In this document: one piece after another, positions 1,644 through 7,800 of the stretch | Layout: each line of letters opens with the position of its first letter | How positions within the stretch are numbered: position 1 is the first letter of the stretch | Assembly: GCA_025774615.1 (NCBI GenBank) | Contig: JALGVQ010000136.1 | Coordinates: 1 to 7,800 of the forward strand | DNA length: 7,800 nt | Reading direction: 5' to 3' | From: a bacterium | GTDB taxonomy: Bacteria; Blakebacterota; Blakebacteria; Blakebacterales; Blakebacteraceae | The notes under the pieces: generated by a model | What the model saw: only the letters and a program-made list of their open reading frames with translations | Told to the model about the DNA's origin: nothing | Databases searched by the model: none | Translations under genes and position numbers: made by a program

Positions 1644-3893
1644 TTGGACAGGAAAGTAGCCGCATACATCTGCCGTGGCTGCAGCATCGGTGAAGCTCTC
1701 GATATCGAGGCACTGATGGAAGCTGCCAGCGACGATTTCGAGGTCGACATCATTCGTGACCACGAATTTCTCTGTGGAGACGAAGGTTGCGCGCTCATCG
1801 CACAGGACATTCAGGATGGCGTGAACGCTCTGGTCATCGCTGCCTGTTCGCCCCGGTTCATGACCGACACCTTCACCTTCGACGGGTGTCACAGTGAGCG
1901 GGTGAACCTCAGGGAACAGGTGGTCTGGAGCCACGAACCGAACGATGAAGACACCCAGATGATGGCGGAGGATTACCTCCGGATGGGTATCATCAGGGCT
2001 CAGAAAGTCGACATCCCGGTTCCCTTCGAGGAAGAGGTCGACAAGACCCTCATGGTGGTAGGTGGTGGTACAACAGGTATCTCCGCTGCTCTTGACGCTG
2101 CCAATGCGGGATATGACGTCGTGCTCGTGGAAAAAGAGGCGCAGCTGGGGGGCTGGATGGGCAGGTTTACCCGGCAGATCCCGCACACCGCGCCGTACCG
2201 CGATCCTCAGCCGGTCGATATCGTCGATCGCATCAGTGAGATCGAGGCAGACGATCGGATCACCGTCTACACCGAAGCGGCGATCGAGGGGATCACCGGT
2301 CAGCCCGGTCAGTTCGATGTCAGGCTCAAGGCCAATGGTACCAGCAGTGAGTTCCGGGTGGGTGCCATCGTCCAGGCGACCGGGTGGAAGCCGTATGACG
2401 CAAACAACCTCGGCCACCTCGGTTACGGAACATGTCCCAATGTGATCACGAATGTACAGATGGAGGAGATGCTCGCCTCTGGGCAACTGACGCGGCCGAG
2501 TGACGGCCAGCCGGCCCGGCGGATCGCCTTCATCCAGTGCGCCGGATCCCGTGATCAGGACCACCTGCCGTATTGTTCGGCGGTCTGCTGTCGCGTATCG
2601 CTCAAACAGGCATTGCTGGTCCGTGAGATGGATCCGGAGGCAGACGCCTACATCCTCTACAAGGATATCCGGTCGCCCGGCCAGTACGAGGACTTCTATA
2701 TCCGCGCCCAGGAGGACAGCGGCATCTTCTTCACCAAGGCCGAGGTCACCGGTATCTCGAACGGTGACGGTGACAACCCGCGCATAGAGGCGGATGACAC
2801 CCTCCTCGGCGAAAAGATCGCACTCGAGGCCGATCTGGTGGTTCTGGCCACCGGGATGGTCCCGAACGCCGCCGACAGTGAAGCGATCAGGAATCTTGTG
2901 GACGCCGAGGCCGTGATCGAGAAGGGTGAAGAGGGAGCGCAGCTCGAAAAAGCGAAACAGACCGTCGAAGAACTGAAGCACCTCAAGGGCACCGAGCTCC
3001 TCAACCTCGATTACCGTCAGGGTCCCGATCTGCCGGCATTCAAATACGACTTTCCCGACTCACACTTCATCTGCTTCCCCTATGAATCACGCAGGACGGG
3101 GATCTATGCCGCCGGGTGCACCCGCGCGCCGAACGATTCCCTCCTTTCCCGTGAAGATGGCTCAGGTGCGGCACTGAAGGCGATACAGTGTATGGAACTG
3201 ACCAGCCGGGGCGAAGCAGTCCATCCGCGCTGGGGGGATATGTCGTACCCAGACTTCGCTCTCGATCGCTGTACGCAGTGCAAGCGGTGCACCGAGGAGT
3301 GTCCATTCGGAACCCTCAATGAGGATGAAAAGGGCACTCCGATGCCGAACCCGACCCGGTGCCGCCGGTGCGGGATCTGTCTGGGGGCCTGTCCCGAGCG
3401 GATCATCTCCTTCTCCGATTACTCGGTTCCGATCACCTCGGCAATGATCAAGGCCGTGGAGGTCCCCGAAGAATGGGATGAGAAACCACGTCTCCTCGGG
3501 CTTCTCTGCGAGAATGACGCCTATCCGGCCCTCGACGCTGCCGGATTGAAACGGATCCGACACAGCTCCTGGATACGGTTCATCCCCGTGCGGTGCCTGG
3601 GATCGGTGAACATCGTCTGGATCTCCGACGCGCTCTCAAAGGGTTTCGACGGGATCATCATGGTCGGCTGCAAATCGGGTGATGATTACCAGTGTCACTT
3701 CATCAAGGGCAGTGAATTGATGGAGACCCGGAGCGAGAACATCCAGGAAAAACTCAAGCAGCTTGCCCTCGAAGAGGAACGTGTAAAACTCGTTCAGCTC
3801 TCGATCGACGAATTCGAGAAGCTGCCTGAGATCATCAACGAGTTCGCCGATGAGATCGAAGAGATCGGCATGAACCCCTTCAAGGGTCTGTAG
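1644..3893 (+). CDS. qmoB: QmoB, quinone-interacting membrane-bound oxidoreductase subunit B (HdrA-MvhD-like)
   Basis: Second flavin/iron-sulfur subunit of QmoABC, cytoplasmic, 749 residues, the expected size. The open frame extends back to an ATG at 1551 inside qmoA, but conserved protein begins at DRKVAAYICRGC, so I place the start at TTG 1644 with its own Shine-Dalgarno site. Domains in order: an HdrA-type N-terminal segment with C10 and C13 and the VVWSHEPNDEDTQMMAEDYL region; a FAD Rossmann site at about 136-165 (GGGTTG at 140-145); the HdrA core with CAGSRD and YCSAVCC; two 4Fe-4S motifs, C543/C546/C549/C553 and C573/C576/C579/C583; and a C-terminal MvhD-like domain from about 615, with cysteines C622, C651, C676 and C684. 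The MvhD-type tail is what separates QmoB from QmoA. It starts 5 nt after the qmoA stop and ends 8 nt before qmoC. Identification is firm; the start codon is likely. Confidence 0.95.
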   Translation: MDRKVAAYICRGCSIGEALDIEALMEAASDDFEVDIIRDHEFLCGDEGCALIAQDIQDGVNALVIAACSPRFMTDTFTFDGCHSERVNLREQVVWSHEPNDEDTQMMAEDYLRMGIIRAQKVDIPVPFEEEVDKTLMVVGGGTTGISAALDAANAGYDVVLVEKEAQLGGWMGRFTRQIPHTAPYRDPQPVDIVDRISEIEADDRITVYTEAAIEGITGQPGQFDVRLKANGTSSEFRVGAIVQATGWKPYDANNLGHLGYGTCPNVITNVQMEEMLASGQLTRPSDGQPARRIAFIQCAGSRDQDHLPYCSAVCCRVSLKQALLVREMDPEADAYILYKDIRSPGQYEDFYIRAQEDSGIFFTKAEVTGISNGDGDNPRIEADDTLLGEKIALEADLVVLATGMVPNAADSEAIRNLVDAEAVIEKGEEGAQLEKAKQTVEELKHLKGTELLNLDYRQGPDLPAFKYDFPDSHFICFPYESRRTGIYAAGCTRAPNDSLLSREDGSGAALKAIQCMELTSRGEAVHPRWGDMSYPDFALDRCTQCKRCTEECPFGTLNEDEKGTPMPNPTRCRRCGICLGACPERIISFSDYSVPITSAMIKAVEVPEEWDEKPRLLGLLCENDAYPALDAAGLKRIRHSSWIRFIPVRCLGSVNIVWISDALSKGFDGIIMVGCKSGDDYQCHFIKGSELMETRSENIQEKLKQLALEEERVKLVQLSIDEFEKLPEIINEFADEIEEIGMNPFKGL

Positions 3894-7022: not shown

Positions 7023-7340
7023 ATGGAAATGGTAGAACTCGGCGGAAAGATGTTGGAGATCGACGAGGACGGATTCATCCAGGATCCCGATCTGTGGGAT
7101 GAGGCTGTCGCTGCGGATCTCGCAAAGACAGAAGGAGTCGATGAACTGGGTGAGCTCCACTGGAAACTGGTCAACTACCTCAGGGATTACTACCTCGAGT
7201 TCAATATGGCGCCGATGATCCGGAAGCTCTGCAAGGCGACCGATCTCAAGCTCAAGGAGGTCTACGATCTCTTCCCGAGCGGTCCGGCAAAGGGCGCCTG
7301 CAAGGTGGCAGGACTGCCCAAGCCCACGGGTTGTGTCTGA
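7023..7340 (+). CDS. dsrC: DsrC, sulfur-carrier co-substrate of dissimilatory sulfite reductase
   Basis: Small cytoplasmic protein of 105 residues in the DsrC/TusE family. It receives the sulfur of sulfite from DsrAB as a trisulfide between its two C-terminal cysteines, which the DsrMKJOP membrane complex then reduces. The C-terminal arm KGACKVAGLPKPTGCV contains both: C93 (CysB) and the penultimate C104 (CysA), with ten residues between them. This two-cysteine arm separates true DsrC from TusE-type relatives having only the last Cys. Other family features are the DEDGFIQDPDLWDEAVA start and the NYLRDYYLEFNMAPMIRKL helix region. ATG 7023 has an excellent ribosome binding site. The gene follows the OsmC-family gene by 63 nt and is followed by a strongly structured spacer. 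DsrAB is not in the window, as is common because dsrC is often unlinked from dsrAB. Identification is firm. Confidence 0.97.
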   Translation: MEMVELGGKMLEIDEDGFIQDPDLWDEAVAADLAKTEGVDELGELHWKLVNYLRDYYLEFNMAPMIRKLCKATDLKLKEVYDLFPSGPAKGACKVAGLPKPTGCV

Positions 7341-7352
7341 TCGAAGAGGCTC

Positions 7353-7376
7353 GATGAGCTGGATAGCCTGCTCATC
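7353..7376 (+). other. Stem-loop 1 after dsrC
   Basis: GATGAGC (7353-7359) pairs with GCTCATC (7370-7376). A T-T mismatch and two more G-C pairs follow, closing an ATAG tetraloop. It begins 13 nt after the dsrC stop. No T-tract follows, so it is not a classical intrinsic terminator. It could protect the dsrC 3' end or pause polymerase. Confidence 0.6.
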
Positions 7377-7378
7377 AA

Positions 7379-7489
7379 ATGGTTACCCGGCTCGCTGAAG
7401 GGCGGGCCGGGCAGGTCACTGACTGGATCAGGGATGATCCGGCCGATGATTCGGCCGATTGTGTCTGGAATCTGTACCGGAAGGTATGA
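7379..7489 (+). CDS. Possible 36-codon leader frame before the RsbRD-like gene (doubtful)
   Basis: ATG 7379 opens a frame that ends at TGA 7487-7489, three nt before GTG 7493 of the next gene and in the same frame. The peptide (beginning MVTRLAEGRAGQVTDWIRDD, ending CVWNLYRKV) does not resemble a family that I know. No good ribosome binding site precedes its ATG, and the stretch also encodes three of the four stem-loops, which argues for a structured RNA rather than a protein. Translation through it would melt those stems and could couple to the next gene. This is an open frame, not a supported gene. Confidence 0.15.
   Translation: MVTRLAEGRAGQVTDWIRDDPADDSADCVWNLYRKV
7386..7411 (+). other. 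Stem-loop 2 after dsrC, the strongest in the window
   Basis: Pairing base i with its mirror across 7386-7411 gives eleven consecutive pairs (nine Watson-Crick, two G-U) closing a GAAG tetraloop at 7397-7400. The outer arm is CCCGGC/GCCGGG. The downstream bases are CAGGTCACTG, so again no T-tract. Probably an mRNA-stability, processing or pausing element; a terminator of the hairpin-only kind cannot be excluded. Confidence 0.65.
7423..7456 (+). other. Stem-loops 3 and 4, adjoining
   Basis: GGATCA (7425-7430), loop GGGA, TGATCC (7435-7440) is a perfect 6-bp stem that can grow to 8 bp by pairing C7423-T7424 with G7441-G7442. Directly next is GGCCGA (7441-7446), loop TGAT, TCGGCC (7451-7456), also a perfect 6-bp stem. 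The two compete for G7441-G7442 if stem 3 is extended. A direct repeat CGGCCGAT at 7440-7447 and 7452-7459 lies across stem 4. No T-tract follows. Confidence 0.55.
7479..7485 (+). promoter_or_regulatory. Ribosome binding site for the RsbRD-like gene
   Basis: GGAAGGT at 7479-7485 is 7 nt before GTG 7493. An in-frame TGA at 7487-7489 rules out any earlier start, so GTG 7493 is essentially forced. Confidence 0.65.
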
Positions 7490-7492
7490 ACG

Positions 7493-7800
7493 GTGGCACT
7501 GGATAGACTGCTGAATAGACTGCTGAAAGAGAAGAAGGACCTGATCGTCCGGAAATGGGTGACGTATGTCCTTGAGACATACCCCGATGAGGGTGCCCGG
7601 CTGTTCAAGTCGGAGAAGGATCCTTTTGCCAATCCGGTGGGTGCCAGCGTGAGGCATGGTACGCAGATGGCATTCGATGCCCTGCTGGCAGGCGAGGAAG
7701 CGGAAGCGATCTCTCAACATCTCTCCGAGATCATCCAGATCAGGGCGGTTCAGCAATTTTCGGCCTCTGAGGGTCTTTCATTCGTGTTCAGACTCAAGGA
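7493..7800 (+). CDS. RsbRD N-terminal-domain protein (partial, runs off the right edge)
   Basis: 102 residues are visible from GTG 7493. The sequence matches the RsbRD_N pattern that I recall: an N-terminal LLNRLLKEKKDLIVRKW helix with W22, then ETYPDE, then the signature DPFANPVG at residues 43-50, and IIQIRAVQQFSASEGLSFVF near 80-99. RsbRD_N was described in RsbR-type stressosome proteins. In sulfate reducers, stand-alone proteins of this type are often encoded just before dsrMKJOP; that is recalled, not shown here. The biochemical role is unknown; signalling or a structural role with the Dsr membrane complex are both possible. It is separated from dsrC by 152 nt of strongly folded sequence, so its expression may differ from that of dsrC. 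Family assignment is good, function open. Confidence 0.82.
   Translation, partial: MALDRLLNRLLKEKKDLIVRKWVTYVLETYPDEGARLFKSEKDPFANPVGASVRHGTQMAFDALLAGEEAEAISQHLSEIIQIRAVQQFSASEGLSFVFRLK

Follow-up and report, generated by a model that had tools for sequence, protein, structure and literature searches.

The 152-nt spacer between dsrC and the RsbRD_N-domain gene that follows it is folded far more strongly than expected by chance, and our preferred reading, to which we give a probability of about 0.55, is that it acts as an intercistronic RNA element protecting the 3' end of the dsrC message. Judged by analogy, the spacer most likely belongs to a known kind of device, already familiar from other operons. 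DsrC is a sulfur carrier that works between sulfite reductase and the membrane complex acting on that sulfur. Its gene lies near the end of the window, the 7,800-nt stretch of DNA analyzed here, in which all genes are on the + strand and follow the order qmoA, qmoB, qmoC, sat, an OsmC-like gene, dsrC, and the start of the RsbRD_N-domain gene (the qmo names are our reading of domain matches and gene order). The draft source genome measures 3.3 Mb at 82% completeness, and its phylum is represented by four genomes. The spacer begins where the dsrC stop codon ends (7340) and extends to the GTG start codon of the RsbRD_N gene (7493):

7023-7340, + strand: dsrC, encoding the DsrC sulfur carrier (105 aa, ending in KPTGCV; Pfam PF04358, E = 4.8e-36)
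7341-7492, + strand: structured intercistronic spacer, 152 nt (minimum free energy, MFE, -71.1 kcal/mol; 0 of 2000 shuffles as low)
7493-7798, + strand: RsbRD_N-domain protein, truncated by the end of the window; its gene leads the distal segment (Pfam PF14361, E = 2.4e-18)

In a sister species (one congeneric genome), the dsrC-RsbRD gene order is kept and a DsrM-like membrane gene comes next after RsbRD; the spacer thus lies between dsrC and the DsrM segment. Codon adaptation, which is only a proxy for the relative levels of the two messages, places dsrC at the 98.7th percentile of 469 genes of the source genome and the RsbRD gene, which is partial, at the 23.7th; the drop is smaller in the sister species, when scored with the reference set of the first. 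DsrC has been described as highly expressed in Desulfovibrio vulgaris (PMC6470260), but in Archaeoglobus fulgidus dsrC transcripts were only average in abundance (PMC3949148), which shows that a high level of dsrC mRNA is not a general rule.

How unusual is the structure? The mean MFE of shuffled spacers is about -52 kcal/mol, and none folded as low as the + strand of the spacer, either among 200 in one run or among the 2000 in another (z = -5.0); the stretch 7353-7456 alone reaches z = -6.3. The comparison with shuffled controls proposed in an earlier note on this DNA is thus clearly passed, and the opinion voiced there that so many hairpins in 152 nt are unlikely by chance is borne out by stem counts: at least four stems, each with at least 6 pairs and a loop of 3-5 nt, are seen in 0.27% of shuffles. 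Among 102 tested 152-nt stretches of the window, the spacer has the lowest z, -5.5, the next non-overlapping stretch being at -3.2. In a 569-kb sample of the source genome, coding stretches average z = -0.06 and codirectional spacers (n = 76) about -1.03; the dsrC-RsbRD spacer ranks third among the latter. Hairpins are common in the spacers of this genome and this spacer is an extreme case; its structure is not due to chance. Two other sampled spacers (L144, 4143-4311; L141, 3172-3391) share matching long structured segments in opposite orientation, e.g., GCATAGCGGTGGCTATGGCGAGGAGGCGCAACG, which suggests, from their sequence, a repeat family unrelated to the dsrC spacer.

Which strand carries the structure? 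The reverse complement folds less deeply (MFE -60.9 vs. -71.1 kcal/mol), in part because G-U pairs in one of the stems, H2, become A-C mismatches on the - strand; since its z is also low (-5.9), shuffles alone cannot choose between the strands. At other dsrC loci, however, the dsrC strand of the downstream spacer has the deeper fold, by a mean of 4.9 kcal/mol (p = 6e-6), vs. 1.8 for other genes, a bias that points to the dsrC transcript. The predicted hairpins on this strand are as follows:

7353-7376, + strand: hairpin H1, 7+2 pairs, ATAG loop (pairing probability 1.00 in long context)
7386-7411, + strand: hairpin H2, 11 consecutive pairs (two G-U), GAAG loop (pairing probability 1.00 in long context)
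7425-7440, + strand: hairpin H3, 6 pairs, GGGA loop (probability 0.67 in the isolated spacer, 0.26 with flanks)
7441-7456, + strand: hairpin H4, 6 pairs, TGAT loop (probability 0.99)
7429-7467, + strand: extended H4, 16 pairs, excludes H3 (basal stem probability 0.69 in context)

The earlier note had counted four hairpins in the spacer. H1, H2, and H4 are predicted to be stable, whereas H3 is outcompeted in context by the extended H4, with which it is mutually exclusive and nearly equal in predicted energy; the folding models amount to three robust hairpins, of which the third has two alternative bases. When the spacer is folded by itself, a fifth small hairpin is seen over the ribosome site (7473-7486), but it is gone in long context. 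The stem that the note had credited with eleven consecutive pairs is H2, which, on these models, is the main candidate for an exonuclease barrier. Part of H1, CTGGATAGMCTGCT (7359-7372), has slightly altered copies at 7499-7512 and 7511-7524, at the start of the RsbRD gene, where they make up a tandem 12-nt repeat within coding sequence.

Conservation was judged against one congeneric genome (G001; L025 gives the same spacer), whose DsrC is 93% identical and whose spacer, 174 nt long, folds with z of about -5.7. A 10-bp stem of H2 is identical in the sister species, with a different loop; H1 has no counterpart there, its site being occupied by an unrelated hairpin. The conserved pairing that the earlier note had sought in homologous spacers is therefore kept at H2 but not at H1, over two congeneric sequences. 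Between the two species, identity at fourfold-degenerate sites is 53-65% in qmoA, sat, osmC, and rsbRD and 78% in dsrC (qmoB was left out of this comparison). At an overall fourfold identity of about 0.61, as we derive it from these values, the 20 identical stem bases of H2 would arise by drift with a probability of about 5e-5, a value that becomes less strict if GC-rich sequence diverges more slowly. Outside H2, the spacer sequence is poorly conserved even within the genus, on the evidence of these two species. In the H3/H4 region, where the sister species has one dominant hairpin, GGGATGA forms the 5' arm of a hairpin in both species and the 3' arms differ; because the latter do not align by sequence, the automatic consensus fold of this region carries no signal in a two-species column-shuffle test (z = -0.1). 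The shared arm hints at maintained pairing, in a hand alignment that is circular. A consensus over the whole 3' part of the spacer gives z = -3.6, with the signal coming from H2. The energy, the folding on the sense strand, the conserved H2 stem, and an enrichment across phyla (below) together back the suggestion of the earlier note that the spacer is a structured RNA.

What might such an RNA do? Of the three roles offered in the earlier note, a 3' stabilizer explaining high dsrC abundance, an attenuator, and a released small RNA, the first fits best, although the stabilization itself we infer. Stable stem-loops lie between two codirectional genes and lack the uridine tract of an intrinsic terminator. 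Judging by gene order, qmoABC-sat-osmC-dsrC and rsbRD-dsrM would be transcribed together, with the spacer in between; RNase E/G or another endonuclease may then cut within the spacer, beyond it, or in the distal part, which would be translated less, and 3'-5' exonucleases such as PNPase would trim back from the cut end. PNPase and RNase E/G are both encoded. The GC-rich hairpins, chiefly H2 but also H1 and H4, would stop the exonucleases; the dsrC message would outlast the distal message, presumably yielding more DsrC than RsbRD and DsrM.

Comparable arrangements are known. At malE-malF and in other E. coli differential-decay operons, a stem-loop without a uridine tract stands between highly and less expressed genes and resists 3'-5' exonucleases after an endonucleolytic cut (PMC5927463). 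The dsrC spacer resembles this type in that its stem-loops, also free of a U-tract, separate the putatively highly expressed dsrC from downstream genes expected to be expressed less; it differs in having several hairpins in series and in being known from sequence alone, and, unlike this spacer, 17 of the 26 E. coli examples lie inside the downstream coding region (PMC5927463). In the E. coli gal operon, the hairpin at the 3' end of galE (8-bp stem, 4-nt loop) blocks exonuclease, as proven by mutation (PMC11925234). H2, with an 11-bp stem and a 4-nt loop, is a compact hairpin of similar size inside an operon; its block is a prediction, whereas that of the galE hairpin was shown by mutation. In puf of Rhodobacter capsulatus, intercistronic hairpin loops are reported to affect segmental mRNA stability (Klug et al. 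1987, cited in PMC6238624). The likeness is one of arrangement, with hairpins between cistrons of an energy-metabolism operon; the genes and the lineage are different.

If more DsrC than RsbRD and DsrM is made, could the ratio be set by synthesis rather than by decay? The main rival, which we consider rather unlikely, holds that some passes of RNAP end between dsrC and rsbRD, through Rho or a weak hairpin, and that the 3' end so formed is marked or held by the hairpins; stoichiometry would be affected in the same way. Rho is encoded in the source genome, but its loading is disfavored by dense RNA structure. As for a hairpin acting by itself, a GC-rich stem with an immediate T run is not found in the spacer. 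The remark in the earlier note that a T-tract is missing is right in substance: only ATTGTGTC follows H4, and this passes a lenient terminator scan. Because several other strong hairpins in sampled spacers of this genome are followed by long T runs and no such run is present here, the spacer is probably not an intrinsic terminator. T-tract hairpins do occur in some other dsrC spacers, which keeps termination in play, as does galE, in which Rho-dependent termination and RNase E cleavage both feed the 3' end held by the 8-bp hairpin (PMC11925234).

Two further readings are improbable. In one, RNase cleavage near the dsrC stop codon would free a structured RNA of 100-150 nt that acts elsewhere. 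The length of the spacer and the density of its hairpins would suit such a 3'-derived sRNA; against it stand the poor conservation of the spacer outside H2 and the outcome of an Rfam 15 search, in which no family scored above its gathering threshold for the spacer (the best, RcsR1, reached 18.6 bits vs. 60), a result that also rules out a described RNA family. The context of the H3 loop, CAGGGATG, resembles what we take to be a CsrA site, and CsrA is a classic partner of multi-hairpin GGA RNAs. A CsrA gene, however, was found in none of the four genomes of the phylum (63-85% complete) by searches whose controls were positive, so a CsrA-binding sRNA, leader, or sponge is not plausible. In the other reading, equally improbable, the spacer would serve as a leader or attenuator for rsbRD, with a switch between H3 and the extended H4 near the ribosome site that answers to a signal or to the movement of ribosomes and so tunes the distal genes. 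The two folds are indeed mutually exclusive and close in energy, but the prediction of a switch comes from energy only, the ribosome-site hairpin is lost in context, and the sister species has a single dominant hairpin in that region; apart from this predicted pair of folds, we found no support for the attenuator suggested in the earlier note.

Least probable is that the spacer is GC-rich, has no function, and contains palindromes only incidentally: the absence of H1 from the sister species and the several spacers without excess structure after dsrC in other genomes would fit it, but the shuffles, the near-zero coding and modest codirectional-spacer means, and the conserved H2 stem do not. A REP- or MITE-type repeat was rejected, since the spacer and the H2 pattern each have a single genomic match. 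The dsrC frame stays open for 57 codons past its stop, through the spacer, to a stop at 7512-7514; we take this open frame as probably due to chance, rather than as readthrough of the dsrC stop, because the first part of the sister spacer does not align and DsrC proteins end at GCV.

Is structure after dsrC peculiar to this genus? Homologue searches gave 84 loci, 55 of which have dsrC with a usable downstream spacer. Spacers after dsrC average z = -2.36 (n = 55), vs. -0.98 after other genes of the same loci (n = 136; p = 7e-6), and -2.53 vs. -1.02 when only codirectional neighbors are counted. The excess stays at -1.4 z once GC and length are matched, holds at the loci in which an RsbRD gene follows dsrC (n = 28; p = 0.0004), and survives the removal of T-tract hairpins (p = 0.002). 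Ordinary termination accounts for part of the excess, since T-tract hairpins are themselves enriched after dsrC in other genomes. Many of the strong hairpins elsewhere could terminate operons in which dsrC is the last gene. Strong excess structure is absent from about half of the dsrC spacers, and the sequences are related by descent; the excess is therefore only a tendency. Long hairpins without a long T run were seen after dsrC in a Longimicrobiales MAG (14 bp; L026, about 3327-3359) and, directly after the gene, in two Moorella species (12 bp; L069, L092).

Two-domain proteins with tandem DsrC-like domains, in open frames of 228-263 codons, are encoded both within this genus and by the unrelated genome G042 (sites G000:C45, L019/L109 582-1373, - strand; L021 1459-2145; L018 1447-2169). 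Most of the domains keep a GAC-type cysteine, but the C-terminal GCV tail is missing from all of them, which sets these proteins apart from ordinary DsrC.

A literature search for dsrC with stem-loops found no relevant paper, and the cross-phylum tendency toward structured RNA after dsrC is the point of wider interest. It is possible, and we put this forward tentatively, that strong 3' structure after dsrC is a recurrent and independently evolved trait of sulfur-metabolizing bacteria of many phyla, in which unrelated hairpins would keep DsrC in excess over DsrMK and mRNA decay would be a general setter of Dsr stoichiometry. Flux is likely to depend on the ratio of DsrC to its partners. If hairpins do set this ratio through message decay, it would be predictable from a simple sequence feature, and the excess seen across phyla makes a ratio set by decay testable in RNA-seq data of cultured sulfate reducers.
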